This document shows positions 23,063-41,583 of a DNA stretch of 64,000 nucleotides, one piece after another. Location of the stretch: NCBI GenBank assembly GCA_005217565.1, contig SJCO01000002.1, positions 528,192-592,191 on the forward strand. The letters run 5' to 3'. The notes under the pieces are model-generated. The model made no database searches, was not told where the DNA came from, and saw nothing but the letters and a program-made list of their open reading frames with translations. How positions within the stretch are numbered: position 1 is the stretch's first letter; each line of letters starts with the position of its first letter. The position numbers and the translations under genes are program-made. Source of the stretch: Puteibacter caeruleilacunae. Its GTDB lineage: Bacteria > Bacteroidota > Bacteroidia > Bacteroidales > Prolixibacteraceae.

Positions 23063-26000
23063 CTAATTTCTGATGGGAAGAAATCGGAAAACAAACGATT
23101 TGTCCTCTGGCTTTACTTCATGTTCAGGGAGGCGCGCTGGACGTGGATGCGATGCAACTCCTGCATGCTCACTATCAATCGTTAACACTACCCTATCAGA
23201 TAATGGTAAATCTTTTTCATGTGTCGTTGTCTCCAATTCATATTCGGTATATGGAATAGCCGTAAATTCAATGAATGAAGAAGGCTGTTCTCCCACCTTC
23301 TTCGATTGCGGCAAGAATGCTGCTTCATTGTTCACAACTCGTCCCACCATTACACCAGTTGTATGGTCTTCAATACGCATCCAGCGTACATCGCAACGGT
23401 TTCCATTGGCCTGAGCTGGAATATAACTTGTGTATAATTCTGAAACCTCAGCCTGGTATTCCCCCACTTGTGCACTGGATGCTCTATCTCGGTAATTCTC
23501 ATGTGGTCCATTTCCATACCAGCTTACCTGATGAAACTGCTCCTTTAAGTGCGTAGTAAGACCAATACGTGGTAAGCCTTTTATTTTCTTCATCTCCTCT
23601 GAAGGATAAAAGTTTACGCCAATACACATACTTCCATCAGGGAAGAAAGAATATCGGTATGCAGCAACAGCAATTGACTTTCGGGCAACACAGTAATCAA
23701 GCGTCACGTCGAAGACTACCTTATGCTTTTCTTCAGTGATCAGTTTCACACTTTTTACCTTCTGCTCCAAAAACTCTGGATCATCCAATCCTAGACGTTT
23801 CCACTGGTAATGGTATTTCGACTGTAAATCTCCCCAGTTGGAATTGTCAGCATCAGTGGTTGCTCTCCAAAGATTTAAAACGGGCCCTTGGGTGCGATCG
23901 ATCATCTCGACCTCATGATTACGCCAAGAGATCAAGCGCCCAATCTGTGTGTTGTATTTATAGACATTTCCCCCGGCAATAACCTCATACGACTTATCAC
24001 CTTTATGCAAAACCACTTCTCCGTCAACAGGCAAAGCAGGCATTCCCTGATTACCTTGCTGCAATTCGATTTGATCCCAGGCATATACCACCTCTTCATC
24101 ATATTGAGCTTTCTGATCGACAAACTCAAAAAGAAGTTGTACATCATCATTAGGATAATAATGCTTATTAATCATGTTAGGAGAAATATTATAGGTCGTC
24201 TCTTCGCCAGCCTTTACTTCCATTGTCGGAAGGTTATCAGTGGCAATAGTATGTCCATTTATCATCAAACTCCAACGACCATCGAATTCATTCAACGATC
24301 GGAAAGAATGACGGTTCATTATAGTAAATCTTCCTTTCTTTAAGTCTTTGACTTTTACTTTGATATCCTGGAATGCCTTAGATACCTCTAACAACTTGGC
24401 ATTTTCTTCCATATCAGTGTTGATAATTCCATCAAAGCCATCATTACCTGTTGGCGCAATACCTGCATCTTCTCCCCAGTCGTAATATTTCGTTCCTTTT
24501 TTATCATACATCGTCCAACCTTGGTCTTTCCAATCCCATATAAATCCACCTGTCAAGTTTTTATACTGCGGATCACGAATAGTTTCCCAAAGTGCTACAA
24601 ACTGGCCCATTTCATTACCTGCTGCATGCATATATTCCTTCATGATGATTGGCTTGTGATGTCTTTTACTACCTGATTTTACTCCTTCAGGACCACTATA
24701 TGCACCAGGCTGAATCTTCAAATGATCACCCTTAGGATCTCCATCACAGTAGATCAATCTGGATGGATCTCTTTTTTCGGCCCACTCATACATGGCATCG
24801 GTATGAGGTCCCATATAGAATTCATTTCCAAGTGACCATAGTATCACTGACGGATAGTTTTTATCGCGCTCAACCATACGAACCATACGCGATAAATGAG
24901 CATTGGCAAAACCTTCTTCTTTCTCGGCATGTGTTACCCAATGTGTTTCCATTGCTGCCTCATCCATCACATAAATACCAATTTCATCGGCCAACTCATA
25001 CAGGTAGTCATCATTAGGGTAGTGACATGTACGAATAGAGTTGATGTGATAACGCTTCATCATCTCTAAATCTTCGCGCATTACCTCCTTGGTAATGGCA
25101 CGTCCCATATCCGGATGCCATTCATGACGATTCACACCTTTCATATAGATCTTACGACCATTCAGGCACAACTGCTCGTCAATTACCTCAATAGTGCGGA
25201 AACCGGTGTTGATTGTAGTTGCTTCAAGCTGCTGATTTCCTGCCTTCAGTTCTATAACCGAAAGATAAAGATTGGGAGTCTCGGCCGACCATGGCATTAT
25301 ATCTTTAATGTGATGTGAGAAACTCACCTTTTGTTCCTTATGCGCTGTAACTACAGGAACTTTTACATCTTCCTCAACCACAACCTCATGAGTAATTTTA
25401 TCAAGCAGTTGCACGTTAAGCATTAAATTGTTTTGACGTTTTTTACCGCTATTGTGAATGGTTATCTCTCCACTCCAATCTCCATCTTTATAGTCATTGA
25501 TGGTTGGCGCATTGATTTGAATATCGCGAATATAGGTATCTGGGCGATGCTGTATAGTCACCTCACGAAAAATTCCCGACAGTCGCCATGTATCAAAGTT
25601 CTCTATTTTCTGAATATCAGCCACTCGATATACTGCAACGGCCAACAAGTTCTCCCCTTCCTGCAGGTAGTCTGTTAAATCGAACTCTGACGGTAAATAA
25701 GCTCCTTCGGCATAGCCTACTTCTTTTCCATTTACATATACATGATAGGCTGTCTTTACTCCAGCAAAACGAATAAATACTCGTCCGTTTTTCTTCCAAT
25801 TTTCAGCAATGGTAAACGACTTTCGATAGAGACCAACCTCATCTGGTTCAACATCCAATGTAGCATTTGAGTAAGCAGGGAAACCATGTCCATAACGCTG
25901 CCAGTTAGAAGGAACTGGTAATTGACTCCATTGTGACGCGTTATATTCAGCGGAATAAAAATCAGCAGGGATATTCTCTTTTCCAAGAATCATCTTGAAA

Positions 26001-26203
26001 GTCCAGTCTCCATTGAGAGAGATTTCGCGTTGTGAGCATCCACCCTGAATTGCAGATTCAATATTCTGATAAGGTCTAAATGCTGCCCTAGATGCCTCGG
26101 TATTGACATCAGTTACGGCAGGATCATCATACGGTGCTTTTTGTCCGCACGTTGTTCCCGCCAACAGGAACAGACAAAACATTGTGATAAATAACTTTTG
26201 CAT
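23063..26203 (-). CDS. GH2 beta-galactosidase-like enzyme
   Basis: A 1046-residue exported enzyme close to LacZ in length. Domains: signal peptide (1-20), sugar-binding jelly roll (about 60-220, VPSNWQRYGHG), Ig-like domain, TIM barrel (about 340-640), second Ig-like region, and beta-galactosidase small-chain domain (about 770-1040). Catalytic residues seen: acid/base Glu461 in WSLGNEF and nucleophile Glu523 in IMKEYMHAAGN; the supporting NRHEWHPD, RTCHYPND and DEAAMETH blocks are intact. The nucleophile context (KEYMHA rather than CEYAHA) and the FYMGPH region differ from the first GH2 gene in this window, suggesting a different linkage or aglycone. It has no C-terminal binding domain. It probably acts on galactoside ends of the same glycan. 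Confidence 0.92.
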   Translation of the reverse strand: MQKLFITMFCLFLLAGTTCGQKAPYDDPAVTDVNTEASRAAFRPYQNIESAIQGGCSQREISLNGDWTFKMILGKENIPADFYSAEYNASQWSQLPVPSNWQRYGHGFPAYSNATLDVEPDEVGLYRKSFTIAENWKKNGRVFIRFAGVKTAYHVYVNGKEVGYAEGAYLPSEFDLTDYLQEGENLLAVAVYRVADIQKIENFDTWRLSGIFREVTIQHRPDTYIRDIQINAPTINDYKDGDWSGEITIHNSGKKRQNNLMLNVQLLDKITHEVVVEEDVKVPVVTAHKEQKVSFSHHIKDIMPWSAETPNLYLSVIELKAGNQQLEATTINTGFRTIEVIDEQLCLNGRKIYMKGVNRHEWHPDMGRAITKEVMREDLEMMKRYHINSIRTCHYPNDDYLYELADEIGIYVMDEAAMETHWVTHAEKEEGFANAHLSRMVRMVERDKNYPSVILWSLGNEFYMGPHTDAMYEWAEKRDPSRLIYCDGDPKGDHLKIQPGAYSGPEGVKSGSKRHHKPIIMKEYMHAAGNEMGQFVALWETIRDPQYKNLTGGFIWDWKDQGWTMYDKKGTKYYDWGEDAGIAPTGNDGFDGIINTDMEENAKLLEVSKAFQDIKVKVKDLKKGRFTIMNRHSFRSLNEFDGRWSLMINGHTIATDNLPTMEVKAGEETTYNISPNMINKHYYPNDDVQLLFEFVDQKAQYDEEVVYAWDQIELQQGNQGMPALPVDGEVVLHKGDKSYEVIAGGNVYKYNTQIGRLISWRNHEVEMIDRTQGPVLNLWRATTDADNSNWGDLQSKYHYQWKRLGLDDPEFLEQKVKSVKLITEEKHKVVFDVTLDYCVARKSIAVAAYRYSFFPDGSMCIGVNFYPSEEMKKIKGLPRIGLTTHLKEQFHQVSWYGNGPHENYRDRASSAQVGEYQAEVSELYTSYIPAQANGNRCDVRWMRIEDHTTGVMVGRVVNNEAAFLPQSKKVGEQPSSFIEFTAIPYTEYELETTTHEKDLPLSDRVVLTIDSEHAGVASHPRPARLPEHEVKPEDKSFVFRFLPIRN

Positions 26204-26379: not shown

Positions 26380-29300
26380 TTAATTTCCACAGACTAATTT
26401 CCCGGAAAAGATTTCTCCTTTTTCAGTATATATTTTGTAATAATAAACACCTTTACTCCATTGTTGAGTATGCAAGTCAATCTTGTTTTTAATCCCTTCA
26501 AAGGCCGAAACTTCCTGATTCCAAATGCGTCGACCATAGGCATCAAAAATGTTCAGATAAGCTTTTGCTGATTCCTGAACCTTAAACTCAATTGTTGTGG
26601 AATGTACAAATGGATTAGGATAAACCGAGCTTACACCGGTTATTCCTGATTGAGCAATTGGATCATCAATTCCCGTAACAGGTCCACTGTTATCAATCGA
26701 GAAGAGAGCATTGTTTAGCGCACTAAAAACATTACCATCAATTGCCCGGGCAGTAATCATTACATCATTTTCAATATTGATTGCTTCACTAAAAAGACTG
26801 GCAGTAGAGGCAATCTGTATCTCTGCAGAAGTGGAATAGTCGGCCTCTAAATCTACATTCACAAGGAAATCGCTGCTTTTCAAACTCACATTAATTCCAT
26901 GTATAGCCAGCACATTTTCACCATTCTTCAGTTCTGTAATATAAGGTGTCAGATCGTACCCTACCTTTTCCCCTGCTTCCCTCGATGCTACAGCTAAAGA
27001 GTTGTAATTGGCATCACCTTCAATATTCACACGCTTCACTTCATTGCCATTCAAGTAGGCAATAAATGCATCATCAAACGACAGGTACATTATCAATCTT
27101 TTGATATCCTTGACTGCATCATTATCCATTGTAAATTTCGAGCGAATTAAACAGCTACTACTTGTATCGTACATTGAGCTCACATCTATGTCAATCAATT
27201 CCTCATAGCCAGTACCTTTTTCATAGCCAACACTACCAGTCCCCTTTTGCCAACCTGAATCACTAAAACCAACGGTCGCCCAACCATCGGGAAGTGAACT
27301 TGTTGGAAGCGATACAGATTTTATAGTCTGATCGTCGACAAGCATTACTTTATTCTTTACCGGAGGAATAATAACAAGCGGATCGGTACCATCCGTCGTG
27401 TAATAAATATCACCATCAGAGGCAGATATTGAGAGTTGATCGTCTTTCTGCACCGGTCCTCCATGTTGATGCATATCATTTATATAGAAATCGGGAGCAT
27501 CAACATCAGGATAAAAGCCTGCCGACTTAAATTGCTCAATTACAGTTGCTGTTCGATATGGGATCACATTCCTAATATAATCGTTTTTGGCTGCGTTCCA
27601 CGAATCTGGCGTCTGATATCCCCATCTGGCACACTCTGCAATTATTGAATATTTTACCTCATCACACCTTCTCTCAAGGCGACTCTTTAATTGATCGGGG
27701 GTCATAGCACCATCATAGAAAAAATGTTTCTGGATCTGATCTGCAAGTATTTTTCTATAACGAGGATCTCCCTCTTCCAACAACATACTAAAGATACTCC
27801 CCGGACCATCAGCATTTCGCTTACCAGGTTGATCCATTCCTGTGCGATTTCCCGCATTACGCAAATAACCATCAGCATCATTCAACAGAAACTTAAAACC
27901 ACTCCCCTTTGCTGTCGGTCCTACGCAGCGATATTCATCTTCAGAGTTACCAAACATGAACATCAGCATAAAATCCACATAGTGTTTTACATCAAGATAG
28001 TCCTTAATTGCACTGTAATTATTCCTCAACGATTTAACATGCTCCCATGCCGATCCATCACCATCATATGGACTCCCGGGATCAGCCCATCCGCCTATGT
28101 TTTTATTACCACTAATAGCTTCGTAATCCTCTTTTTCTCCCCCCAAATATTGTGCTAACATATCGGCATTCCAACGTTCTCTTAAATGATATTGCCCCCA
28201 ATAAACACCATTAAAATATAAATGCACAAAACGTCCATGAGCATTTAAATTTCCCATATCAAGCATTGTATCATCAGTAAATCGATTCGACATGTAAAAT
28301 CCACGCTGATTCATGTCGTGTGATCCAGCCCGTAGTTCTAACTGATCAAATTTACTAACAGCTGAAATACCATGATCATGCCCTTCAAACAAAGGATACT
28401 CTAACCGCGACGCACCATACCTACTTCTAAAATATAATCGAAAATTCTGTTTCGCAAATGGACCTGCCCATTCGCCTCCATAGTAACGAATTCCCGCATT
28501 TTCCTGAAATCCGGCCTCTTCTCCTGAGACAATATATTCAATTGATGCAGGCATATCATCAGTCTTATTAATCGTATTAGGTTGAATGACAATAGAGACT
28601 GTTGGGATATCTGTTAGCGATTGCTTCATCAATGGAGCGTACCTCGAGTCTTCAGTAATGTTTTTATTCATCACGTCTGAATCTATCACATCCTCAAGGA
28701 AGAGGTAAGTCTGCGTATCAACATTGGTCGCCTTATGATCATCTTTGAAAGCAGCAGCCCTCACAACTGTTGTTCTATTGATTAATAATGATACGTGCGG
28801 CGTTTCATCTGCACTAGCCGCTTCAGCTCGGAATCCATTCTCTAGTGTTGGCTCACTACTATCTAAGGTATAAATTAGTGTTGCTCCTTTTGTGTCACTA
28901 CTAATAACCAGATCAAAAGGATTTTCGAAAAATCCTCTATCAACGTTAAACTTAGTGTCCTTAACAACCCCATCAACTCCTTCTTGATTAGGCATCTCTG
29001 GTGTCGGAAACTCGAAGTAAGCCTTGGTTGCCAGAGTCGTAACTTTTACTGCATCCAATACAGGGATCAATAAAAATGAAGGATCATTGCTATCAATGTT
29101 TAATCCTTGAATAGCCAACGTATTGGTGCCTTCATTCAGCAAAGAGACAGGAATTGTAAATTGCTCCCATTCCTCTGCTGTATGAGTCTCGATTGCCGTA
29201 GAATTGAAAGTCAAAGTCTCAATCGCTGCATTACTCGTTGCTATTTGCTGTCCGTTTATCCAGACTACAAAACCATCATCACTTTTGACACTTAAACGTA

Positions 29301-30504
29301 ACATATTAAAATCTGCATTCTTAGCAACTTCAAAAGGATATCTGACATATACCGATGAATTTATTCCCTTCATCTCATCCTGAATATTGGTGTTGATAAG
29401 CGCATTATAGCTTTTATAACCAAAAACCTCAACCTCCGCAAAAGTCAGGTATTCTGCAGCCCCACTCACTAATGTTTTGCTGATCCTAATTTTCGAACCA
29501 TCAACTGTCTGTGATAACGAAATTAAATCGAGTGTTAATGTCTTGCCTGGCGACACAGGTGTCTGACCTTCATTGAATTGGTTTAATACTTCTGAAGTAT
29601 AGACTACCTCATCGGCCTTATTCTTTATCTCAATAGTAATGTTGTACAATCGCTCCTGGCAACATCCCGCACGATTGTGCATTACAATTTTCTCAATTCT
29701 ATAACTCTCTTCTAAATCGACCTCCCACCACGGAGTATTATCTCCATCAGCTGTATGTGTGAAATTATTGGAGATGCCATCAGTTGCAAAAGATGCAGGG
29801 AAAGCGCCCCATTCAGACGACTGTGTTGCTTGCTTCTGAAGAGCAACATTTTCTAGCTCTATACCTCCTTGCCGCTGATCAAAACCTATTGCACTCGTAA
29901 CCTGACTCCATGCAGAGTCATCAAAAGCCGCCCCTCCTGTCCAGTCATAGTTTATCTGTTCTGCTATTTCTGCTGTAGGAACAATCATTTTACCGACACT
30001 TTCACTAGCTACAAGTGATGTGACCTGTGTTTGTTGTTCTATCCCATAACTTAAGTCGGTATATTGTTGTTTGTAATTGGGACGATACTCATCAACTATC
30101 GTAGTGCCATCATTATTTACCAAAGCCAAATATTCACCTGAACTACTCAACTTAAAATTTGTATGCAACTCCTCTCCAGCGATTCGTCGATCTTTTCCTG
30201 AGGCAAAGAGCAATAGGTAATCACCTGGATTAATACTAACCTTTGGAAATCTCCACTTCGCCAACATTGTTGAATCGTCGGTTAAACACCAGTTTTCAAG
30301 ATCAACAAGATCTGCTGTCGGATTATACAATTCAATCCAATCGGAAGAGTTTCCATCAACGTCAACTATAATTTTACTGTTAGCAGCTGAAAACTCACTA
30401 ATTATTACATTTGACAAATCCTGAGCACATATATTCACTGAGCTGACTCCCACAAAAGTGACAACACAAATAATGCGAAACAAACTACTACTAACTATGT
30501 TCAT
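26380..30504 (-). CDS. CotH-kinase multidomain protein with lamin-tail, F5/8C and type IX sorting domain
   Basis: A 1374-residue secreted protein. In order: signal peptide (to about Ala27); lamin-tail domain (about 30-145, IISEFSAANS, DWIELYNP, NWCLTDD); F5/8C-like discoidin domain (about 215-362, NVALQKQATQSS, PWWEVDLEE); a beta-sandwich (370-490); a chitobiase-type domain (about 525-605); the CotH kinase domain (about 632-1000) with KQNFRLYFRSRYG, YFNGVYWGQYHLRERWN and the metal-site-like FLLNDADGYL; a second chitobiase-type stretch; and a C-terminal type A Por/T9SS sorting domain (YPNPF...STTIEF, GVYYYKIY). CotH proteins are atypical protein kinases that work outside the cytoplasm. The sorting domain predicts export through the outer membrane by T9SS and attachment to the surface. 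It is the last gene of a six-gene operon with a polyphosphate polymerase. Confidence 0.85.
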   Translation of the reverse strand: MNIVSSSLFRIICVVTFVGVSSVNICAQDLSNVIISEFSAANSKIIVDVDGNSSDWIELYNPTADLVDLENWCLTDDSTMLAKWRFPKVSINPGDYLLLFASGKDRRIAGEELHTNFKLSSSGEYLALVNNDGTTIVDEYRPNYKQQYTDLSYGIEQQTQVTSLVASESVGKMIVPTAEIAEQINYDWTGGAAFDDSAWSQVTSAIGFDQRQGGIELENVALQKQATQSSEWGAFPASFATDGISNNFTHTADGDNTPWWEVDLEESYRIEKIVMHNRAGCCQERLYNITIEIKNKADEVVYTSEVLNQFNEGQTPVSPGKTLTLDLISLSQTVDGSKIRISKTLVSGAAEYLTFAEVEVFGYKSYNALINTNIQDEMKGINSSVYVRYPFEVAKNADFNMLRLSVKSDDGFVVWINGQQIATSNAAIETLTFNSTAIETHTAEEWEQFTIPVSLLNEGTNTLAIQGLNIDSNDPSFLLIPVLDAVKVTTLATKAYFEFPTPEMPNQEGVDGVVKDTKFNVDRGFFENPFDLVISSDTKGATLIYTLDSSEPTLENGFRAEAASADETPHVSLLINRTTVVRAAAFKDDHKATNVDTQTYLFLEDVIDSDVMNKNITEDSRYAPLMKQSLTDIPTVSIVIQPNTINKTDDMPASIEYIVSGEEAGFQENAGIRYYGGEWAGPFAKQNFRLYFRSRYGASRLEYPLFEGHDHGISAVSKFDQLELRAGSHDMNQRGFYMSNRFTDDTMLDMGNLNAHGRFVHLYFNGVYWGQYHLRERWNADMLAQYLGGEKEDYEAISGNKNIGGWADPGSPYDGDGSAWEHVKSLRNNYSAIKDYLDVKHYVDFMLMFMFGNSEDEYRCVGPTAKGSGFKFLLNDADGYLRNAGNRTGMDQPGKRNADGPGSIFSMLLEEGDPRYRKILADQIQKHFFYDGAMTPDQLKSRLERRCDEVKYSIIAECARWGYQTPDSWNAAKNDYIRNVIPYRTATVIEQFKSAGFYPDVDAPDFYINDMHQHGGPVQKDDQLSISASDGDIYYTTDGTDPLVIIPPVKNKVMLVDDQTIKSVSLPTSSLPDGWATVGFSDSGWQKGTGSVGYEKGTGYEELIDIDVSSMYDTSSSCLIRSKFTMDNDAVKDIKRLIMYLSFDDAFIAYLNGNEVKRVNIEGDANYNSLAVASREAGEKVGYDLTPYITELKNGENVLAIHGINVSLKSSDFLVNVDLEADYSTSAEIQIASTASLFSEAINIENDVMITARAIDGNVFSALNNALFSIDNSGPVTGIDDPIAQSGITGVSSVYPNPFVHSTTIEFKVQESAKAYLNIFDAYGRRIWNQEVSAFEGIKNKIDLHTQQWSKGVYYYKIYTEKGEIFSGKLVCGN

Positions 30505-30555
30505 CTGTTTAAATTTTTATGATTTCGGTTAAGACAACGATATATTTCGCATTGC

Positions 30556-31257
30556 TTACAATGAATATTTAAATACAATTGTTAATATCTGCGAATCCAA
30601 GTCGGGTTTTACTAGTTCATTCTCATACATGTATGACATCGACAAGCGAATCTTCTTTGTCATATTATAATGCGTACCTAGTGCTAGTCGATATTGACTA
30701 AATACAGCTCCTTTATCATAGTTCAAATGAGAAAAGATCTCTCCTCCAACAAAAGGACTAAGTGGAAATCCGAATAACTGATGTTCAACCTCTAATGAAT
30801 TCCTGTTGATCAACTTATTCTTATTCCCCAGAAAAGAATTATTCAATTGCCAGTACCCATACTGTAGTCCTGACTTTACAGCAACACTATAGCGCTTAGC
30901 CAATGTACCTTTATACCTAGCTGAAAGGTTTACTCGGTGGCCAAATTCTCTCTGATGCTTCGGATCATCTTTTACGATAAAGCGATACCCCACACCAAAT
31001 CGAATATGTTTCCATGGTTTATATTGAAGACTAGGTTCTACCAATATCCGATCAAATTGAGCAAAGTTATGACTCAACCGATACTGAAACTCCAGGATTC
31101 CTTCCAATCGTTTCGCTAAATCGCTCTCAACCTTAATACCCGTACGCAACTTTGTATCAATGCCTTCACTCCGGCCAACTGATGAAATAAAAAGCAATAC
31201 ACCAATACAAACAATGATTTTAAGATACTTAATCATCATACTCATCTTGATTACCAT
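30556..31257 (-). CDS. DUF2490-like outer-membrane beta-barrel protein
   Basis: A 233-residue protein with a signal peptide (YLKIIVCIGVLLFISSVGRS) and alternating amphipathic strands ending in a C-terminal aromatic-rich strand (LTIVFKYSL), which fits a small outer-membrane barrel. The pattern KLRTGIKVESDLAKRLEGILEFQYRL and PWKHIRFGVGYRF is typical of DUF2490. The start at 31257 overlaps the preceding gene by 29 bp; ATGs at 31239 and 31236 would also keep the signal peptide. Being translationally close to DUF4956 and 51 bp before CotH, it may give the cassette an outer-membrane component. Function unknown. Confidence 0.7.
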   Translation of the reverse strand: MVIKMSMMIKYLKIIVCIGVLLFISSVGRSEGIDTKLRTGIKVESDLAKRLEGILEFQYRLSHNFAQFDRILVEPSLQYKPWKHIRFGVGYRFIVKDDPKHQREFGHRVNLSARYKGTLAKRYSVAVKSGLQYGYWQLNNSFLGNKNKLINRNSLEVEHQLFGFPLSPFVGGEIFSHLNYDKGAVFSQYRLALGTHYNMTKKIRLSMSYMYENELVKPDLDSQILTIVFKYSL

Positions 31258-31888
31258 AAGCGATATCGGCTTGATTTACAATTCCATTATTTTGATAGTA
31301 GTAGATATTGATCCTGGCAGAATCTCTCAGGAAATCGATCTTACCGATCTCCACACGATTGATTTTAATTCCTGTGCGTTCTTCAAGGTCTTTTATCAAC
31401 TCCTCATGACGCTGCGGTTTTATTAATTCAATTTTTTCATATTCAATTACCTTTCGTGATTCATGCTTTAACAAAAGGAGTCGTTCCAATGCAAAAGTTA
31501 CAGCTATCAACGCCAGATTAGTAAACAGTAACTCAGCATAGCTGACTTTTCTGTTTGCCAGCGCATTGATTACGGAAACACCAATAACCAGAAAAAGATA
31601 GGTCATCTCTTTAATAGGTATTTGCCTTGTACGGTATCGTATGATCCCAAAAATGGCAAATAAGCCCAGAGCAAATCCCAATTCCAACTTTACATTTTCC
31701 AATAAGAAACACAGCAAGAAAATAACTGTGGATATCAATATATAAGTAAAGAAATAGTCTTTTCGATGTGATGATTTATAATAGAGATATTTTACAATCG
31801 TCACAATCACCAATAGGTTAAAACCAAAGCGGAACAACAGTTCCCAAAAGTCTTCAAAGTCGATGAGTTCTATTTCGAAAAAAGCCAT
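31229..31888 (-). CDS. DUF4956 integral membrane protein
   Basis: A 219-residue protein with four or five membrane helices in residues 10-140 (FRFGFNLLVIVTIVKYLYY, FFTYILISTVIFLLCFLL, GFALGLFAIFGIIRYRT, YLFLVIGVSVINALA and a last helix near 125-140). The helices are followed by a soluble C-terminal domain of about 75 residues. The block GFALGLFAIFGIIRYRTRQIPIKEM is the family hallmark as I remember it. DUF4956 proteins commonly sit beside VTC-type polyphosphate polymerases and CotH proteins. A role as the inner-membrane partner of the polymerase, like the membrane part of yeast VTC, is inference. It begins 10 bp after the VTC gene. Confidence 0.85.
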   Translation of the reverse strand: MAFFEIELIDFEDFWELLFRFGFNLLVIVTIVKYLYYKSSHRKDYFFTYILISTVIFLLCFLLENVKLELGFALGLFAIFGIIRYRTRQIPIKEMTYLFLVIGVSVINALANRKVSYAELLFTNLALIAVTFALERLLLLKHESRKVIEYEKIELIKPQRHEELIKDLEERTGIKINRVEIGKIDFLRDSARINIYYYQNNGIVNQADIAYGNQDEYDD

Positions 31889-31898
31889 AGTGTATTGA

Positions 31899-32669
31899 TT
31901 AGTTTAGTTTATTCATAATATTCAAAAATCGGGGCTTAAATCGGTTGCTTTTTACGGGGCTTTCAAGGAGGATCAATCCCATACAGTACTTGCTAAATCC
32001 CATAGGATGTATTTGCAATGCTCTTAAAGCATCAACAAAATCGTAACTTTTGGTGCGCAAGTCTCTTTTCAGTTCAACAATACAAACCTGATTGAATTCA
32101 CGTGTCGATTCACGCTGCACATCTGTTACAGATATATTGTAATCAATCGTAACACGCTCTGGTATCTTCTTATGCACCAATGTAATTCTGATAAAATTAT
32201 TCTTCAATGTAGGATGCAAATCATCGGCAATACCAGGAATTTTACGCTCTAGTAGCGTTCTACAAGGTGCTGTAAGTGAATATTCTTCTTTGGTATATCG
32301 CACACGCTCTTTGATTGTCTCGTCTTTATTTGTTTTTTGCTTAATTTCAAAAAACGTAAGGTTATTGTTGAGATAACGTCTAAAGCGTACTTTATATCGA
32401 TCTCTTATTCCACGCTGATGCTGCTGAAAGAACTCATAATTCTGCGTATCGAAATAACAAGATTCATAATCGTGAATTAATCGATTATTGATATCAACCA
32501 CGTTATAATTAGGAGCAATTACATCCAGCAACTGAGGAAGTAAGCTGATATTAAACACAAACTTAGTGTCCACCCGTCGCATTAAACGCGCTTCGGAAAT
32601 TTCACTTAAGGGTATAACATCTAGTCGACAAACAGCTTTCTGAATACTATTTAGCAAACTGAAATTCAT
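31899..32669 (-). CDS. VTC-domain polyphosphate polymerase-like protein
   Basis: A 256-residue soluble protein that is essentially one VTC tunnel domain. The nucleotide- and phosphate-binding basic residues of the family appear in order: Lys36 in RRVDTKF, Arg95/Arg97 in YKVRFRRY, Glu108/Lys110 in FFEIKQK, Arg172 in ERVTIDY, Glu199/Lys201 in VELKRD, and Lys227 in FSKYCMG. This completeness suggests an active enzyme. In yeast Vtc4 the same fold makes polyphosphate from ATP and pushes it across a membrane. Here it has no membrane helix or SPX domain of its own; the adjacent DUF4956 protein may provide the membrane part. Its start overlaps the MORN-like gene by 23 bp, indicating coupled translation. 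Confidence 0.85.
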   Translation of the reverse strand: MNFSLLNSIQKAVCRLDVIPLSEISEARLMRRVDTKFVFNISLLPQLLDVIAPNYNVVDINNRLIHDYESCYFDTQNYEFFQQHQRGIRDRYKVRFRRYLNNNLTFFEIKQKTNKDETIKERVRYTKEEYSLTAPCRTLLERKIPGIADDLHPTLKNNFIRITLVHKKIPERVTIDYNISVTDVQRESTREFNQVCIVELKRDLRTKSYDFVDALRALQIHPMGFSKYCMGLILLESPVKSNRFKPRFLNIMNKLN

Positions 32670-33060
32670 ACCGCTTCAATTTGTATTTCCGGTTCTTATT
32701 GTCGTAATAGCTTTTCTCTACTAGCAAACCATTGCTATACTTGTATTCGATCCTTTTAACAACATCTCCCCGATAGTTCAACTCTTGCTCTTCAACCAGT
32801 TTTCCAGCTTCGTTGAAAGCAAACTTTTTCCAACCTTTCACCCGTCCCTTTTCATCGAACTTTTTTTCCTCTATCAGTTCACCATTTTCATCGAAGTATT
32901 CTTCCTTCTCAAGTAATAGCTCCTTTTCGCCCTGAACAATATCCTGCTCATACGATTTTACCAACTTTATTTTGTGTTCCTTGATTACTCGTTTACTCTG
33001 ACAATATGCATTACCACAACCAAGAATAACCAGCACAATTACAACTACTAAATTTCTCAT
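32647..33060 (-). CDS. Small exported MORN-like repeat protein
   Basis: A 137-residue protein with a signal peptide (MRNLVVVIVLVILGCGNAYC, possibly lipidated at Cys15 or Cys20). Short tandem repeats follow, of the form EEYFDENGELIEEKKF, EKGRVKGWKKF and EAGKLVEEQEL, as in MORN/toxin-antitoxin-type YwqK repeats. The repeats form a beta-meander and usually mediate binding, not catalysis. It overlaps the preceding lipoprotein gene by 4 bp (ATGA) and the following VTC gene by 23 bp, so the three are translated together. Function unknown; it may be a periplasmic adaptor in the VTC/CotH system. Confidence 0.7.
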   Translation of the reverse strand: MRNLVVVIVLVILGCGNAYCQSKRVIKEHKIKLVKSYEQDIVQGEKELLLEKEEYFDENGELIEEKKFDEKGRVKGWKKFAFNEAGKLVEEQELNYRGDVVKRIEYKYSNGLLVEKSYYDNKNRKYKLKRYEFQFAK

Positions 33061-33812
33061 AGCTTTTCAATATTAATTTCATCCAGTTCTACATCTTGAT
33101 TTTCTTCTGTAACTGTGATCTGCTTCTCAACGACTACATCCTGCGTTCCTCCTTTTACATCCTCGGAATACACATAGATCTTATAATCTCCTTTTATAAG
33201 ATTTGTGAAGGCAAATGTTCCATCATGGTTTGTGCGGATTCTTTCATCATACTGTTTGTGGTTAGCATACACAAGATATACTTCCTGCTCCTGCGCTGGA
33301 GTAACATCTTTCACAATCAAGTTAGGCCATGCTGATGAATTTCGATAATTGGTAACCATAACTCTACCGTGAATACTTGCAGCACCATCGTCATAATCGA
33401 GAAGTTTAATAACCTCGAGTTCTCCAAGATCAACTGTCTCATGACCGCTAAGCTTAATCTCCATCGTTTTTTCATGGGTCACTTTTGCACCTTTTTCTAT
33501 ACCTTCAGAATAATAGTATAGAGTGTAAGTACCTGGCCAGAGGTGATTAAACTCAAAGTCACCATAAAAACTGCTACTTGTCTTTTCTCCAACTGACGTT
33601 TCGTCTCCGAACAAGAGAAACACATCTTCGTCTTTTGCAATCGTTTCTCTTTGCAAAACACTCATGTCATCGTTATAGGCTTTCTCAATGAGACGTCCTT
33701 TTATACTGCATCTTCCTCCTACACCTTCATCGGGTGTACAACTTGAGCAAATAATAAGACACAATGCTATTAATTCAATTCTGAATTTGTGATATGAATA
33801 CACCAATTCCAT
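33057..33812 (-). CDS. Lipoprotein with two Ig-like/carboxypeptidase-regulatory-type repeats
   Basis: A 251-residue protein with a lipoprotein signal (LCLIICSSCTPD; Cys25 lipidated). Two similar beta-sandwich repeats follow, each ending in a GDFEFNHLWPGTYTLYYYSE or GTFAFTNLIKGDYKIYVYSE type hairpin, as in carboxypeptidase-regulatory or SdrB-like domains. The repeats are about 110 residues each. A possible earlier Met choice is limited; the ATG at 33812 gives a plausible n-region. It opens the six-gene cassette and is preceded by a 394-bp gap that should hold the promoter. It may be a surface or periplasmic scaffold. No enzyme motif seen. Confidence 0.65.
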   Translation of the reverse strand: MELVYSYHKFRIELIALCLIICSSCTPDEGVGGRCSIKGRLIEKAYNDDMSVLQRETIAKDEDVFLLFGDETSVGEKTSSSFYGDFEFNHLWPGTYTLYYYSEGIEKGAKVTHEKTMEIKLSGHETVDLGELEVIKLLDYDDGAASIHGRVMVTNYRNSSAWPNLIVKDVTPAQEQEVYLVYANHKQYDERIRTNHDGTFAFTNLIKGDYKIYVYSEDVKGGTQDVVVEKQITVTEENQDVELDEINIEKL

Positions 33813-34045
33813 AGGTTATAATATTAAGTTAGTTTATCAGGGAGAATGAAGGCACACACCTCTCTGCGTTAGTCTGTTCAGCTTACTATACACAAATATA
33901 ACAAGCTATATGAGAATAAGAAACATCCCACATAATAATCTGATAATCAACATAAGTGATTCCAAATACGAAACAAACAAGAAGAAATATGCAAACGATG
34001 TTCAAATAGCCATTTCATTAAGAATCAAGCTATTTTTTCAGTAGA

Positions 34046-34109
34046 CCATAAATCATGGAGTAATCGGTCAATGCAATAATTATTTCACAACCGACACTCC
34101 AGATTATGG
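34046..34109. repeat. Long imperfect inverted repeat
   Basis: Arms of about 20-23 bases (34046-34068 and 34090-34109) share CCATAA, TGGAGT and TCGGT in the same order on opposite strands with small bulges, around a 21-base AT-rich loop. It could be a decayed miniature element or an RNA structure. Confidence 0.4.
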
Positions 34110-34133
34110 TTGATTGAAGTATACAAAATTATT

Positions 34134-34171
34134 AATCCAGGAAAGAAACATTAAAGAATCAATCCTGGATT
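34134..34171 (-). terminator. Stem-loop after the DUF4998 lipoprotein gene
   Basis: A 9-bp perfect stem with a 20-base loop lies 36 bp below the stop at 34207; on the minus strand it is followed by AATAATTTTG. It likely closes the SusC/D operon. Confidence 0.5.
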
Positions 34172-34206
34172 CTAACAGACAAATAATATAAGAATATCCT
34201 CAGAAG

Positions 34207-36224: not shown

Positions 36225-38120
36225 CTACCATCCTGGGTTCTGATCAAGAGCAGGATTCACAATCAGATCTCTTTCACTAATTGGCCACAAATAATCGCGT
36301 TGCTTGAATTCTAGCTCATCGATCTTCTTGATTCGATAATACGCTTCTGCATCTTTCTGTTCTGTATCCCAACCTCGGATATCATTGTTCATATAATCCG
36401 ATGCCTCTAACCAACGACGAAGATCCCAGAAACGTTGCCCCTCGAATGCCAACTCAATTAATCGCTCTTGATGAATGATCTTTCTCATACCATCTTTAGT
36501 GGTTGCTTCAGCTGGATTCTTTGCATAATTTGTCCAGGATGTCTTAACCCCCTCTAATCCTGCTCTATCACGAACCTTATCAATCCACTCATAACTAGCT
36601 TCAGGACCATCAACTTCATTTAAAGTCTCGGCATACAATAGATAAAGATCAGACAAACGGAACACTGGCCATGGATACACTTCTCTTGTATAATTCGATC
36701 CGAGTACATCATCCTCATGTACAAGTTTTTTAGGCCAATATCCTGTAACACTATACTGGTAGGTATTTATACGAGCTGCAGTCTGTCCCTTTTTGGCTTT
36801 TACTACCCAAGGATCTTTATTCCCTTTTTTATCATTAAAACGACCATGACCATACATGATGTTTCCATCAAAGGCCAAAGAAGCATAAAAACGAGCTTCA
36901 CGGTTAAAGTGTAGATTTACCGTAGTATATCCCGGCTTCACATAAAAGGCATGATCTTCAGGTGCCTGTCCTAACTCATATCTACTTGAATAATCATACG
37001 TTTTATCCGACTCGATAGGAACACCATTGTTAGAGTAAAATAGCTCTGCCATTCTCAACGTTGGGGACCAATATGAATTTACACGTTCTACGACCTCAGC
37101 TTTAACTGAAGGATCTAGTCGAGGTAAAGAAGCATTTTGCAACCAACCAGAACGACTCAAGGATGATCCCCATATTACCTCTTCATTCCATTTTTCTGAC
37201 ACCGCACCTCTAATACTCATCTTCAAAATTGTGGTATCAGACAAGTTGTAAAGAGCAGAACCTGGATATTGGAAAAGACTATGTCCTCCAGCGTGTGCCA
37301 AATCAATTGCAACCTTACAAGCCTCTTTAGCCTTCACCCATTTCTCTGCATCGAAAGTTGAGTTGATATATTCTGCGCCATCATCTGTTACAAAACCAGG
37401 ATAATTTGAATTTCCATTGAACAAAGGACTTGCCGCAGTTACCAGTACTCGTGCTTTTACTGCCGCCGCAATTGGTTGAGTAATACGACCTAATTCATCA
37501 GCCTTATTCTGAATTACCGGAGGTAGGTTTGGCATCGCTTCATCCAACAAAGCAACAATATGATTCACCACCTCATCAACAGTTTCACGAGGTAAACGCA
37601 CCGCATCCACAGTACTACTAACATCAACATTCTCATCAACAATAGGTACAGGACCATACATTCTTAATAACCAAAAATGGTAATAGGCCTGAAGAAATTT
37701 CACCTCTGAAATCCAACGATCTCTTTCGTAAGGTTCCAAGTCCTTTGGCGAATCAATATTTTCCAGGAAAATATTACAATCACGCAAAGCAATAAACATC
37801 TTATAACTAGCCCAATAGTTCAGCAAAGGATTAACGATTCCCTGATTTCCTTTGGCAATTTTTAATCCTGCCCAGTTCTTTCCTGCCACATCATTTGCCC
37901 AACATTCATCTCCTGCACAAATACCAGGATTACTCAATGAGGCATGTTGGGGCATATAGCTATATAATGTAAATAGATACTTCTCTGCATTTGCCCTACT
38001 GTTAAAAGCAATATCGATAGTTGCAATATCATCTGGAACAACATCCAGATATTCGTTACACGACTGACTCCCAAAGAGAACCACGATAACAGTTAAAATA
38101 TGTAGTATTCTTTTTCTCAT
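36225..38120 (-). CDS. SusD/RagB-family surface glycan-binding lipoprotein
   Basis: A 631-residue lipoprotein (VVLFGSQSCNEYLDVVPDD; Cys21 lipidated, followed by the family-typical YLD-x-x-P). The all-helical TPR-like SusD fold is shown by AEKYLFTLYSYMP, EVKFLQAYYHFWLLRMYGPVPIV, and the C-terminal RLIELAFEGQRFWDLRRW block followed by YLWPISERDLIVNPALDQNPGW. SusD caps the SusC barrel and delivers oligosaccharides into it. It begins 10 bp after the SusC stop. Large size for SusD is still within range. Specificity cannot be read from sequence. Confidence 0.95.
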   Translation of the reverse strand: MRKRILHILTVIVVLFGSQSCNEYLDVVPDDIATIDIAFNSRANAEKYLFTLYSYMPQHASLSNPGICAGDECWANDVAGKNWAGLKIAKGNQGIVNPLLNYWASYKMFIALRDCNIFLENIDSPKDLEPYERDRWISEVKFLQAYYHFWLLRMYGPVPIVDENVDVSSTVDAVRLPRETVDEVVNHIVALLDEAMPNLPPVIQNKADELGRITQPIAAAVKARVLVTAASPLFNGNSNYPGFVTDDGAEYINSTFDAEKWVKAKEACKVAIDLAHAGGHSLFQYPGSALYNLSDTTILKMSIRGAVSEKWNEEVIWGSSLSRSGWLQNASLPRLDPSVKAEVVERVNSYWSPTLRMAELFYSNNGVPIESDKTYDYSSRYELGQAPEDHAFYVKPGYTTVNLHFNREARFYASLAFDGNIMYGHGRFNDKKGNKDPWVVKAKKGQTAARINTYQYSVTGYWPKKLVHEDDVLGSNYTREVYPWPVFRLSDLYLLYAETLNEVDGPEASYEWIDKVRDRAGLEGVKTSWTNYAKNPAEATTKDGMRKIIHQERLIELAFEGQRFWDLRRWLEASDYMNNDIRGWDTEQKDAEAYYRIKKIDELEFKQRDYLWPISERDLIVNPALDQNPGW

Positions 38121-38130
38121 GATCCTTTAA

Positions 38131-41100
38131 TTAAAATGATACTTGTACTCCTAAATTAATTACGCGCTGCAACGGGTAATTCATACCTTTTCCCTTCAAC
38201 TCTGGATCCCACAGTTTGAATTTACTAAAATGGAATAAGTTGGTTCCACTCAAGTAAAAACGTAGTTGTTCCATTCCCAAACGGTTGTTTGAAGTATTAT
38301 TTTTCAACACATCATATCCCAATTCTAACTGCTTTAATCTCAAGAAGGCACCATTGCGTAACCACCAGGTACTTTGTTGTACATTATTTTGAACAACATC
38401 AGTCGACAAGCGTGGCCATAATGCATAACTGTCTCTATTATCTTCTGACCAATGACTATCAGCAAACTCCTGTAGTATGGCATTTTCCCCAATTAACTTT
38501 GGTCCTGTAAAAGGAGACATCTTGTCTGCTTCAATAAAGAAGGATACTCTACCCAATCCCTGAAAGAATGCAGATAAATCAAATCGCTTATACCCTACGG
38601 AGAAACCAAAACCATAGTTAATCTCAGGAACTTTTGGTTTTCCAATAGGCACGATATCCAATTCAGAGATAATTCCATCTCCGTTAACATCTTTGTACTT
38701 AATATCTCCCCCCATCACTTGCTCATCAGCAAATTCCTGACTTGGCGAATTATCAACATCATCCTGGTCAATGAATAATCGCTCTGCAATGTATCCATAA
38801 TTCTGAGGAATTGGATTACCAACCTTGGTCTTCCATGGTGCACCGAACGATGCATAATCAGGTTCCTCATAGACCTCAAAATTACTGGTTGCATAAGTAA
38901 AGTTAGCGCGTGCTGACAACCAGAAATCATTGCTAAAATATTTGTTTGCATCGATTGAGATATCAATACCTTTTGATGATGCCTCGCCAAGGTTAGATCT
39001 GACACTTGCTTGTAATCCCATTTGTACAGGTATCGATGACCTTGTCTGCAAAATATTTGTTCTCTTTTCTGTAAACAAATCAGCTAATACATGTACTGCG
39101 CTGTTAAACATGTTTAACTCGACTCCGAAGTTAAATTTGGTTGCTTCTTCCCAGGTAATATCAAAGTTTTCATAACGAGAAATAGAAACACCTGACTTAC
39201 CGTACCCATAGTTGGTACCAAATTGAGCCCCTCGATTAGGATCTTTCAAATTAACTTCTGACAGATAAAAGAATCTATCCTTTCGACTATCTCCAATATT
39301 ATCACTACCAACCACTCCGTAAGATGCTCTAAACTTCAAGTGATTGATAACTTTTGACTTCCAAAACTTTTCATTCGATACCAACCATCCTGCTCCGATC
39401 GATGGAAAAAATCCAAAGCGACTATTCTTAGCAAAACGTTCAGAACCGTTATAACCAAAGTTAAATTCCGCAAAATAACGATCATCGTAACTATAAGTAA
39501 AACGACCAGATAAACCAACATTTCTACTAGGCAATGATAACTGAAGTGAATTTGCATTTCCATCAAGGTATTGACGTCCAATACCTACCAACAGACCACT
39601 AACACCATGCTTCTCATTGAATGTGCGATCGTAATTCAAAGCCACTTCTCCATATCGTACTGTGTTAATTTTCTTTTTATCCATGTCTGGATGAAACTGA
39701 AGAAACTCCGTTCCCGTCTGTTCGTTCAATAATTCCAATCCATATACATCAGTCGCCTTATTATAGTACCCAATGCGATAATAGAATGGATTGTATGAAC
39801 GACTCAATTGAAAATATGAGGTCCTATTATTGTTTCCTAAGAATCTAAATTTCAAGCCCTCTGTTATAAATCCCAGGTCTTGTTTTACTTCAACCTGAAT
39901 CAAATTCAATGAATTACTTGAATCTTTATATCCCCTTACCAACTCAGCATAAGGATTAATAAATCGTCCTCCTTCATCGTTACCAAAAAGAATATGGTTA
40001 GTATGCATATTTGCAGCATCTGGTTGATAATATGCAGGGAAACGAACTGGATTCGCTTTCATGATCATATTGTACACATCAGTACCTCCATGCAATGGTC
40101 CAGTGTAATCATCAAGGGTAGAGTGTAATCGAAGAATTACATCTGTCGTTTTGGTTAGACTCACATCAATATTGGATCTCAACAAGAAACGTTGAAGGTT
40201 AATATTGTTGTTAAAGTTATTACGTTTATCTACTTTCAATACACCATTGTCTTTAGTATATGATGCAGCTACGTAGTAACGAGCAACTTTACCTCCACCT
40301 CGAATATTAAAGTTAAAACGCTGGTTAGAAGTATGGTCTTTTAGTAATAGTTTTTGCCAATCAGTTACAGGATAAACATTTGGATTTCCTCCTGCTAACG
40401 TATTGTCAATTTTAGTTTGGGAATAAGGAAGAATTCCTAGCGGGTCTCTTGTTCGCACTGCCTCATTATGAAGCTTAAGATAGGTAATAGGATCTGCAAT
40501 ATTCAAGTTTTCAGTCGCACCACTGAATGAGTTTTCAAAACGCGCCGATACCTTAACGCGTCCTTCCTGACCAGATTTAGTAGTTACATAGATAACACCG
40601 TTTGCACCACGTGCACCATAAATTGCAGTTGATGTTGCATCCTTTAGAATTGAGAAACTTTCAATATCATCAGGATTCAATCGAGCCAAATCATCGGTAC
40701 TTAACTCAACACCATCAATCAAGATAAGTGGACTGGCTTTTAGGTTAAATGAGGTTACTCCTCGAATAAAGAACTGAGCGTTATCCTGACCAGGCTCTCC
40801 ACTTGTTTGGTAAGAGATAACTCCTGCTACACGACCCGATAACGCAGTTGTGAGGTTGCTTGAAGGGACCTTTAATTCTCCTGGTTTTACTGTACTCATG
40901 GATCCCACAATTGTTTTCTTTTTCTGTGTTCCAAAGCCAACAACCATGATCTCATCTACCTCTTCGGACTTACTGGAAAGTACAACATCTATTTTTTTGT
41001 TGTTACCAACATCAACAATTTTACTTTCCATACCAATGAAGGTAACCACTAATTTGTCTCCAGGAGATGCCTCAATAGCGTACTTACCATCAACATCTGT

Positions 41101-41583
41101 TACAACTCCTTTGGTTGTACCAACAATGGTAATCGTTGCTCCAGGTAACGGTTCTCCACTGTCATCGGTAACCTTACCTTTCACAAACTTATCCTGATTG
41201 CCTGCATTCTCATTTGCACGCACCTTTGGTGATTCACGTATTACCACCGTTTGGTTCACCACATTGTAATCGTACCCTTGTGGTACAACATACTTATCAA
41301 GAAAGTCTTCGATTCTGATCTTTTTCTTTCTAACGCTCAATTTCTCGGCCTTCTCAAAAAGGTCGGAGCGATAGATGAAGGAGAAGTCTGCCTGATCTTC
41401 GAACAACTGTAAAATCTCCTCTACACTCGCATTTTTTACATCTACAGATAACCTTGTATTTTGTGAATAAATACTCGCATTTACCTGAAAGACAGCGATC
41501 AACATAAATAGCGCCAGAAATTTCATACGCAATAAAAAGTCACTGCTTCGCCCAAAAGGCAAAACACTTGGTTTTTTTTTCAT
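38131..41583 (-). CDS. SusC/RagA-family TonB-linked receptor with STN domain
   Basis: A 1150-residue outer-membrane transporter. After a long signal region (hydrophobic part MKFLALFMLIAVFQVNA) comes an STN secretin/TonB N-domain (about 40-110, TRLSVDVKNASVEEILQLF). A carboxypeptidase-regulatory-like domain follows (about 134-205, GKVTDDSGEPLPGATITI). Then a plug with MVVGFGTQKKKTIVGSMSTV, IRGV, LILIDGVE and SILKDATSTAIYGARGANGVI, and a 22-strand barrel ending GVQVSF. The STN domain marks it as a signal-transducing receptor that can control the FecR/sigma pair encoded immediately upstream. It and SusD import oligosaccharides in a TonB-driven manner. Confidence 0.95.
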   Translation of the reverse strand: MKKKPSVLPFGRSSDFLLRMKFLALFMLIAVFQVNASIYSQNTRLSVDVKNASVEEILQLFEDQADFSFIYRSDLFEKAEKLSVRKKKIRIEDFLDKYVVPQGYDYNVVNQTVVIRESPKVRANENAGNQDKFVKGKVTDDSGEPLPGATITIVGTTKGVVTDVDGKYAIEASPGDKLVVTFIGMESKIVDVGNNKKIDVVLSSKSEEVDEIMVVGFGTQKKKTIVGSMSTVKPGELKVPSSNLTTALSGRVAGVISYQTSGEPGQDNAQFFIRGVTSFNLKASPLILIDGVELSTDDLARLNPDDIESFSILKDATSTAIYGARGANGVIYVTTKSGQEGRVKVSARFENSFSGATENLNIADPITYLKLHNEAVRTRDPLGILPYSQTKIDNTLAGGNPNVYPVTDWQKLLLKDHTSNQRFNFNIRGGGKVARYYVAASYTKDNGVLKVDKRNNFNNNINLQRFLLRSNIDVSLTKTTDVILRLHSTLDDYTGPLHGGTDVYNMIMKANPVRFPAYYQPDAANMHTNHILFGNDEGGRFINPYAELVRGYKDSSNSLNLIQVEVKQDLGFITEGLKFRFLGNNNRTSYFQLSRSYNPFYYRIGYYNKATDVYGLELLNEQTGTEFLQFHPDMDKKKINTVRYGEVALNYDRTFNEKHGVSGLLVGIGRQYLDGNANSLQLSLPSRNVGLSGRFTYSYDDRYFAEFNFGYNGSERFAKNSRFGFFPSIGAGWLVSNEKFWKSKVINHLKFRASYGVVGSDNIGDSRKDRFFYLSEVNLKDPNRGAQFGTNYGYGKSGVSISRYENFDITWEEATKFNFGVELNMFNSAVHVLADLFTEKRTNILQTRSSIPVQMGLQASVRSNLGEASSKGIDISIDANKYFSNDFWLSARANFTYATSNFEVYEEPDYASFGAPWKTKVGNPIPQNYGYIAERLFIDQDDVDNSPSQEFADEQVMGGDIKYKDVNGDGIISELDIVPIGKPKVPEINYGFGFSVGYKRFDLSAFFQGLGRVSFFIEADKMSPFTGPKLIGENAILQEFADSHWSEDNRDSYALWPRLSTDVVQNNVQQSTWWLRNGAFLRLKQLELGYDVLKNNTSNNRLGMEQLRFYLSGTNLFHFSKFKLWDPELKGKGMNYPLQRVINLGVQVSF

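Follow-up and report, generated by a model that had tools for sequence, protein, structure and literature searches.

What task could unite a predicted polyphosphate polymerase, a membrane protein of the DUF4956 family and a secreted CotH-family protein in one operon inside a glycan locus? We addressed this question for a stretch of 64,000 nucleotides from Puteibacter caeruleilacunae (the window; G000:C2:528192-592191 of an 8.0-Mb draft genome in 220 contigs). Six genes follow one another on the minus strand: a lipoprotein with two transthyretin/CarboxypepD-like stretches (LipoA, 33057..33812), a MORN-like small protein of 137 residues (32647..33060), the VTC-domain (triphosphate tunnel) predicted polyphosphate polymerase (31899..32669), the DUF4956 inner-membrane protein (31229..31888), a DUF2490 predicted outer-membrane beta-barrel (30556..31257) and a CotH-kinase-family surface protein of 1374 residues (26380..30504). 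This layout, with overlaps of 4, 23 and 29 bp and gaps of 10 and 51 bp, had been described in an earlier note on this DNA, and checking the open reading frame (ORF) positions reproduced every coordinate. Read by eye, VTC has no signal peptide, and signal-like or lipobox N termini are seen in LipoA, the MORN-like protein, DUF2490 and CotH, so that the gene order corresponds to cytosol, inner membrane, envelope, outer membrane and surface.

We propose, with a probability of roughly 0.45, that the operon is a trans-envelope route for a phosphate polymer, with polyphosphate synthesis in the cytosol, export over both membranes and CotH at the surface. VTC would make polyphosphate from ATP on the cytosolic side, as its catalytic residues suggest, and would pass the growing polyanion to the RxR-bearing DUF4956 protein in the inner membrane, in the way yeast Vtc4 feeds the VTC membrane channel. 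The DUF2490 barrel, with arginines in its lumen, would give the polyanion passage across the outer membrane, the lipoprotein and the MORN-like protein may be periplasmic or envelope adaptors, and CotH, secreted by the type IX secretion system (T9SS) and carrying a fucolectin-like domain, would be the kinase-family effector acting on surface proteins or glycans. From the linkage, domains, residues and predicted folds reported below, we infer the identity of the polymer, the direction of its transport and the coupling of these steps.

The VTC domain of the window protein is matched in Pfam with 84.9 bits (E = 8e-24). The protein is a lone tunnel domain of 256 residues, in which Pfam matched neither an SPX nor a transmembrane domain. 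Searched against the PDB as a single sequence it returned only noise, and a profile of 30 bacterial VTC proteins was required for a match to yeast Vtc4 (5e-16). In the alignment, Lys36, Arg95, Glu108, Glu199, Lys201 and Lys227 correspond to K200, R264, E279, E426, K428 and K458 of Vtc4; Lys36 is conserved in at least 90% of the 30 bacterial proteins and the other five are invariant. The six tunnel residues that the earlier note had called intact thus all align with catalytic residues of the yeast enzyme. Twelve Vtc4 residues (K200, R264, R266, E279, K281, R361, R373, D377, E426, K428, S457 and K458) are all kept, including R264, R266 and E426 (window R95, R97 and E199; full-length chain numbering), and a yeast VTC complex with R264A/R266A/E426N is described as catalytically impaired in the available text of PMC9911596. 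The intact catalytic residues make polymerase activity of the window VTC likely, as judged from sequence. Since a profile search found PPK1 elsewhere in this genome, VTC would be a second route to polyphosphate. Alternatively, VTC could be a tunnel enzyme with another product, for example one placing phosphate on a carrier, lipid or glycan, to be flipped outward by DUF4956, leading to phospho-glycans or phospho-proteins via CotH. Such a role would suit the glycan-degradation surroundings in the window, on contig C47 and in Marinoscillum furvescens (see below), as well as an O-antigen-ligase-like gene at the DUF4956 locus L038, but we consider it improbable because the twelve mapped residues are kept, among them the R264/R266/E426 trio, whose combined replacement leaves the yeast enzyme impaired.

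The strongest association in the operon is that of VTC with DUF4956. In 80 Bacteroidota genomes, DUF4956 gave 34 matches in 28 genomes, CotH 119 in 34 and VTC 24 in 18. VTC adjoins DUF4956 in 23 of its 24 matches, and the 24th is a fragment at a contig end, the remainder of whose profile lies at the start of a second contig from that genome; 11 of the 34 DUF4956 matches have no VTC neighbour. A CotH gene lies within 10 kb of ten DUF4956 matches, four in this genome and six of the 30 elsewhere. Among 14 control genomes, VTC and DUF4956 matched in the same three, two of which also have CotH. The evenly drawn set comprises 33 loci from the 80 genomes, counting the three other clusters of this genome and leaving out the window and L045, which has no DUF4956. 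Within 3 kb of DUF4956, this set has VTC at 22 loci, DUF2490 at 5 and CotH at 6 (9 within 10 kb).

A second set, L046-L125, was found by a DUF4956 pattern and comprises the best 80 of at least 524 confirmed relatives, so its frequencies apply to proteins closely related to the DUF4956 of the window and not to the family as a whole. Within 3 kb of DUF4956, VTC is present at 71 of these 80 named loci, DUF2490 at 56, LipoA at 32, the MORN-like protein at 23 and CotH at 20. The corresponding counts are 39, 30, 17, 13 and 15 for the 44 loci whose two flanks each reach 6 kb or more, and 55, 41, 25, 20 and 17 for the 60 loci kept by dereplication at 80% identity, which started from 79 loci because the ORF caller had missed the DUF4956 of L048. 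Where they lie within 3 kb (79 loci), VTC, DUF2490, LipoA and the MORN-like gene are always co-directional with DUF4956, and CotH is so in 15 of 20 cases. All six families occur together at six named loci (L049, L051, L057, L090, L110 and L111), where CotH is either convergent or the first gene; L110 and L111 appear to be one locus present in two assemblies. L064 is titled Euryarchaeota and is arranged as in records titled Flavobacteriales, so that title or binning may be wrong. Genes for large MscS-type mechanosensitive channels lie near two CotH-bearing loci (L049 13770-16232 and L092 1383-3911).

A plasmid search with the window DUF4956 gave 11 records, of which eight were inspected, one of them (L133, Nonomuraea) being unreadable and uncounted; for L131, L134 and L137 the record annotation was used, as ORF calling had missed genes. 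A Deinococcus taeanensis plasmid has CotH-VTC-DUF4956, one of another Deinococcus has VTC-DUF4956, and DUF4956-VTC also occurs on plasmids of Nitratireductor, Shinella, Aminobacter and Streptomyces. The plasmid search with the DUF4956 type of contig C18 of this genome gave no match. The linkage of VTC, DUF4956 and CotH, which the earlier note had named, is therefore borne out by neighbourhood counts in Bacteroidota and by loci of other phyla.

This genome itself has three VTC, four DUF4956 and four CotH matches in four clusters, and all four CotH genes lie within 3 kb of a DUF4956. Contig C18 has CotH, DUF4956 and VTC. Contig C3 has a regulator pair, VTC, DUF4956, DUF2490, a lipoprotein CotH, a ferric-reductase-like protein and a flavoprotein. 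The regulator pair reads as LytTR-type from its sequence, and such a pair beside CotH in L113 is confirmed by Pfam. Genes for a ferric-reductase-like membrane protein and a fumarate-reductase-like flavoprotein occur at two DUF4956-CotH loci, L012 3000-12700 (C3) and L036 (G062), the labels coming from Pfam in L012 and from clustering relatives in L036.

The window's DUF4956 protein matches PF16316 with 188 bits (E = 1e-55). Its model has five helices and a C-terminal ferredoxin-like domain (pLDDT, the predicted confidence score, 84.6), and R84 and R86 of the RxR motif are identical in 113 of 113 sequences. We place the handover from VTC at this protein because of their near-obligate linkage and because DUF4956 also pairs with HlyD- and OEP-type proteins. 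In the evenly drawn set, two clusters of HlyD-type proteins lie within 3 kb of DUF4956 at 11 and 9 of the 33 loci without overlap (20 in total), and OEP-type proteins at 7 of 33 (the c9-type match is below the cut-off and that in L036 well over it). In six genomes of one family (f22; L039-L044), a DUF4956-HlyD-OEP-SDR cluster is nearly identical, with no VTC or CotH nearby; it is possibly a stand-alone exporter.

Other neighbours handle phosphate. In Pseudoalteromonas, a gene of the phosphate-selective porin O and P family (Porin_O_P) follows DUF4956 after 1 bp, with no VTC in the stretch examined. In three alphaproteobacteria, DUF4956-VTC is followed by genes for phytase-like proteins, and one of the three also has an annotated inorganic phosphate transporter. 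A phytase-like/SdiA-type propeller protein was found by domain scanning in the Bacteroidota locus L033, with relatives beside L025 and L026, and a metallophosphoesterase adjoins a VTC-less DUF4956 in L021. The alphaproteobacterial phytase-like proteins and phosphate transporter, the propeller proteins and the metallophosphoesterase are, in our reading, independent signs that a phosphate polymer is handled beyond the inner membrane. They would also suit an extracytoplasmic phosphate store, in which VTC-DUF4956 packs polyphosphate into the periplasm, in a vacuole-like topology, for hydrolysis and re-import, CotH being a later addition in some lineages. However, the window operon has neither a phosphatase nor a phosphate transporter, and the additional proteins it encodes suggest a function at the outer membrane and the surface; we regard such a store as clearly unlikely here.

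For the proposed trans-envelope route, the DUF2490 protein (Pfam E = 4e-21) is the candidate for the outer membrane. No other porin family in Pfam matched it at E<=0.001. The model (pLDDT 91.5) has 11 strands by DSSP, and its best fold matches are NanC (Z 16.2, root-mean-square deviation 3.1, 175 residues aligned) and KdgM (Z 16.1, 2.4, 157 aligned), porins with a role in acidic-oligosaccharide passage, as indicated in part by PDB entry titles. Among 50 sequences, at least 92% have a basic residue at each of the lumen-side positions 60, 92, 108, 128, 152, 154 and 190; the window protein has Ser at 154. We compared six arginine positions, leaving out position 154 (basic in 92%), with DUF2490 proteins from 25 of 27 further loci of the 80 genomes, the other two having given no match. 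R92 is present in 50 of 50 linked proteins and in 1 of 25 others, and position 132 is Gln in 45 of the 50 and Glu in 24 of the 25. With R92 and Gln for Glu at 132, the linked proteins thus carry about two extra positive charges in the lumen. In a further alignment, the basic residues at 92 within the comparison set belong to L160 and L162, both of which were kept; L160 also has Gln at 132, and its genome (G045) has VTC-DUF4956 on another contig. Three DUF2490 proteins adjacent to CotH and away from VTC-DUF4956 (two in G041, one in G064) have R92 with Gln or Ser at 132, and the two of G041 also sit with LipoA. The shared R92 thus connects the set of CotH, LipoA and DUF2490 with VTC-DUF4956 even where the two are not adjacent. 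The other DUF2490 of this genome (L171), with R92 and Glu at 132, is a partial exception. R92 together with loss of Glu at 132 may therefore be a sequence signature of barrels tied to DUF4956 or CotH. Export through the envelope, as the earlier note had suggested, is in this part strengthened by the NanC/KdgM-like barrel and by the HlyD/OEP-type or OprO/P-type partners in relatives.

The CotH domain of the last protein is matched in Pfam with 53.6 bits (cut-off 23.8; E = 3e-14), together with Lamin tail, F5/8 type C and CHB_HEX stretches. Its C terminus matches Por_Secre_tail (PF18962; 39.8 bits, E = 5.5e-10) and TIGR04183 (39.1 bits), in agreement with the earlier assignment as T9SS cargo. 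The F5/8 type C domain has its closest matches in chains related to FBP32 and fucolectin (3cqo, 2j22). A profile of ten CotH proteins including that of the window matches 5jd9 (E = 4e-39). In Marinoscillum, the same CotH subtype adjoins T9SS alginate-lyase-like proteins and a sulfatase, and since glycan genes flank CotH both there and in the window, a role on polysaccharide-binding surfaces is suggested. At this locus (L047 1366-19689), two tandem T9SS alginate-lyase-like proteins (CBM6, F5/8C) precede the operon, and an unannotated protein and the sulfatase follow it. CotH-like proteins of unclear role have also been reported in cellulosomes in the accessible part of PMC12484212. The MORN_2 match of the 137-residue protein reaches 13.6 bits against a cut-off of 29.6, so 'MORN-like' is a label only; the protein is nevertheless a recurring operon member, with the 23 named loci given above.

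Several observations weigh against the trans-envelope route. In the fold search with DUF2490, autotransporter barrels come within 1 Z of NanC. Acidic residues also face the lumen and outnumber basic ones in 4 of the 11 strands, and five of the six arginine positions compared are family-wide. We therefore ruled out the arginine ladder as polyphosphate-specific evidence, only R92 and the E132-to-Q exchange being discriminating. For DUF4956, no sequence match in the PDB was found at E<=0.001 and no solved fold was matched (best Z 5.2); MscS-like folds reached only Z 4-5, the noise level, and were left unused, and the transmembrane chains of yeast VTC were not matched in the PDB searches by sequence or fold. 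In the f22-family HlyD/OEP clusters, DUF6580 and a BrkB-type membrane protein also lie close by; this weakens DUF4956 as the only candidate for the inner-membrane part and leaves it as one candidate. CotH is not found within 10 kb of 24 of the 34 DUF4956 matches in the 80 genomes, nor within 3 kb at 60 of the 80 named loci, 25 of which have a flank shorter than 3 kb. Outside this genome only 7 of 115 CotH matches lie within 10 kb of a DUF4956, so most CotH proteins work elsewhere. The extra partners of the window are rare in the evenly drawn set, where, beside the 5 and 6 of 33 loci given above for DUF2490 and CotH, LipoA lies within 3 kb of DUF4956 at 1 locus and the MORN-like protein at none, and these low counts mean that the full arrangement is uncommon in such a sample.

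The absence of VTC from some otherwise similar operons weighs on the same side. Apart from the missing VTC, the gene order in Marinoscillum furvescens (L047) is exactly that of the window, and its 1370-residue CotH shares the main domains; no VTC was matched in its genome, and PPK1 is present. The genome of Carboxylicivirga marina gave three VTC matches. In the metagenome-assembled genome of a Cyclobacteriaceae member with a DUF4956-DUF2490-CotH operon (L107), neither VTC nor PPK1 was matched. Contig C47 of this genome (L014) has CotH, DUF4956 and DUF2490 without VTC. VTC is thus dispensable in at least three such operons, and because these exist it cannot be the sole donor, which weakens the interpretation of the earlier note on this point. 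Contig C47 has GH29-like, sigma/FecR-like and SusC/SusD-like genes as neighbours (the GH29 and SusC/SusD labels being readings of the sequence) and proteins that, judged by eye, look similar to the DUF4998- and DUF4959/DUF5000-type proteins in the window locus.

The kinase domain of the window CotH adds a further difficulty. The LRE glutamate and an acidic DAD pair are seen, but Tyr replaces the KGNSS lysine of the small CotH proteins and the N-D loop differs, with an uncertain alignment in this region. MAFFT alignment of the domain with small CotH proteins misplaces the active-site loops, profile against profile alignment is better, yet not residue-safe, and the domain alone matched the small-CotH profile with a probability of 10.8%. 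The kinase domain therefore appears divergent in sequence, and its activity is uncertain. In the most far-reaching version of the export route, polyphosphate exported by VTC-DUF4956-DUF2490, or with HlyD/OEP-type proteins in relatives, would be the phosphodonor of a surface CotH kinase and allow extracellular phosphorylation without ATP. This version would explain the phosphate source of extracellular CotH-family kinases if true, and we find it very doubtful.

A different explanation is a surface phosphorylation or regulation module. CotH would use an ordinary donor to phosphorylate glycans or proteins of the envelope, its target being carried by DUF2490 and the lipoprotein. DUF4956 would regulate phosphate or ATP in the manner of MgtC, VTC would serve only as a sink for phosphate in the cytosol, and the module would tune a surface polysaccharide in streptococcal pel-accessory fashion. 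In streptococci and clostridia, CotH, a polyphosphate polymerase, DUF4956 and DUF4832 lie beside pel, with a related set in bifidobacteria, according to the available portion of PMC7112168. The Pel locus of S. intermedius has a trio of CotH, polymerase and membrane protein (SIR_1592-1594), and as far as the available text of PMC12345266 goes, deletion of the CotH and DUF4956-like genes changed Pel amount and aggregation, no such effect is reported for the polymerase gene, and the transmembrane part of the DUF4956-like protein is likened to MgtC. DUF4956 and CotH may therefore act together without polyphosphate. The VTC-less, otherwise colinear operons and the DUF2490-CotH clusters apart from VTC-DUF4956 (two in G041, with LipoA, and one in G064) agree with such a module. 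On the other hand, it leaves unexplained the near-obligate pairing of VTC with DUF4956, often without CotH and in several phyla, and the HlyD/OEP-type, OprO/P-type, phytase-like and phosphate-transporter neighbours. PelG, moreover, has no match in this genome, where other pel genes were not searched. We consider a regulation module somewhat unlikely and retain the trans-envelope route as the preferred reading.

The operon sits between SusC/SusD genes and a GH2 gene, all on the same strand: SusC-like at 38131-41583, SusD at 36225-38120 and GH2 at 23063-26203. Further window genes encode GH92, GH28 and a sulfatase, and with a SusC/SusD pair and glycan enzymes adjoining the operon, the surroundings are those of a polysaccharide utilisation locus. 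Within it, one protein (13845-15215) combines ricin-type lectin and transglutaminase-like domains. No glycan-enzyme catalytic domain was matched by Pfam in any of the six operon proteins. The statement that the operon is not itself a glycan enzyme set hence holds for these six genes; in Marinoscillum, however, polysaccharide-degradation genes adjoin this CotH subtype, and the glycan neighbourhood may matter to function. The position between SusC/SusD and GH2 on one strand could be taken to mean that the genes are grouped by chance or are a plain part of the utilisation locus; we reject this on the linkage counts, the association being conserved in many loci with different flanks, and find it barely credible. 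An intergenic stretch of 394 bp upstream of the lipoprotein gene (33813..34206, minus strand) divides the operon from the SusC/SusD-side genes and possibly holds the operon's own promoter. A sigma-70 promoter scan gave 33 matches against 32.0 in shuffles, no excess.

If the trans-envelope route is correct, the locus gives concrete candidates for each membrane of bacterial polyphosphate export and pinpoints single residues, R84 and R86 of DUF4956 and R92 of DUF2490. We found no description of a bacterial polyphosphate exporter or of a diderm version of this module in the literature covered, most subscription journals lying outside it. The accessible text of the 2025 paper (PMC12345266) states that the three-gene synteny is absent outside the Pel locus. 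Contrary to this statement, VTC-DUF4956-CotH synteny occurs in Bacteroidota, in this genome without a PelG match, and on a Deinococcus plasmid, whose genome lies outside the pel search; this widens the set from a pel accessory to an envelope module. With PelG as the single pel marker, no match over the cut-off and one weak match were obtained in ten CotH-linked genomes; in the 80 Bacteroidota genomes four matched, one over the cut-off.

Comparison with known systems shows what is shared and what is particular to this operon. As in the pel accessory trio, the same three families are adjacent and CotH is secreted, and the membrane protein in the middle of the S. intermedius trio has, as described in the accessible text, transmembrane helices and, at its C terminus, a domain in the cytosol, which resembles the layout of DUF4956; equating SIR_1592 with DUF4956 is our own step, the name not being used in that text. 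Unlike the pel accessory set, the operon belongs to a diderm and includes an outer-membrane barrel, a lipoprotein, a MORN-like protein and a CotH that is T9SS-secreted or a lipoprotein. NELoc-2 of C. perfringens also brings together VTC genes, CotH and a polysaccharide-synthase-like gene (PMC2879425, available part), and our guess is that its 'tubulin/FtsZ'-annotated genes next to VTC are DUF4956; it differs in being a Gram-positive pathogenicity locus with duplicated VTC. Compared with CotH of the B. cereus/B. subtilis type (PDB 5jd9/5jda), the window CotH is a large multidomain surface protein with a divergent kinase domain. DUF2490 resembles the NanC/KdgM porins in its barrel fold (Z ~16) and has conserved basic lumen-side residues as they do, beside the acidic ones noted above. 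The yeast VTC complex (Vtc1/Vtc3/Vtc4) shares with the operon a triphosphate tunnel polymerase, the same catalytic residues and the predicted feeding of polyphosphate to a membrane partner, whereas the destination in the window would be the periplasm or the surface instead of the vacuole.

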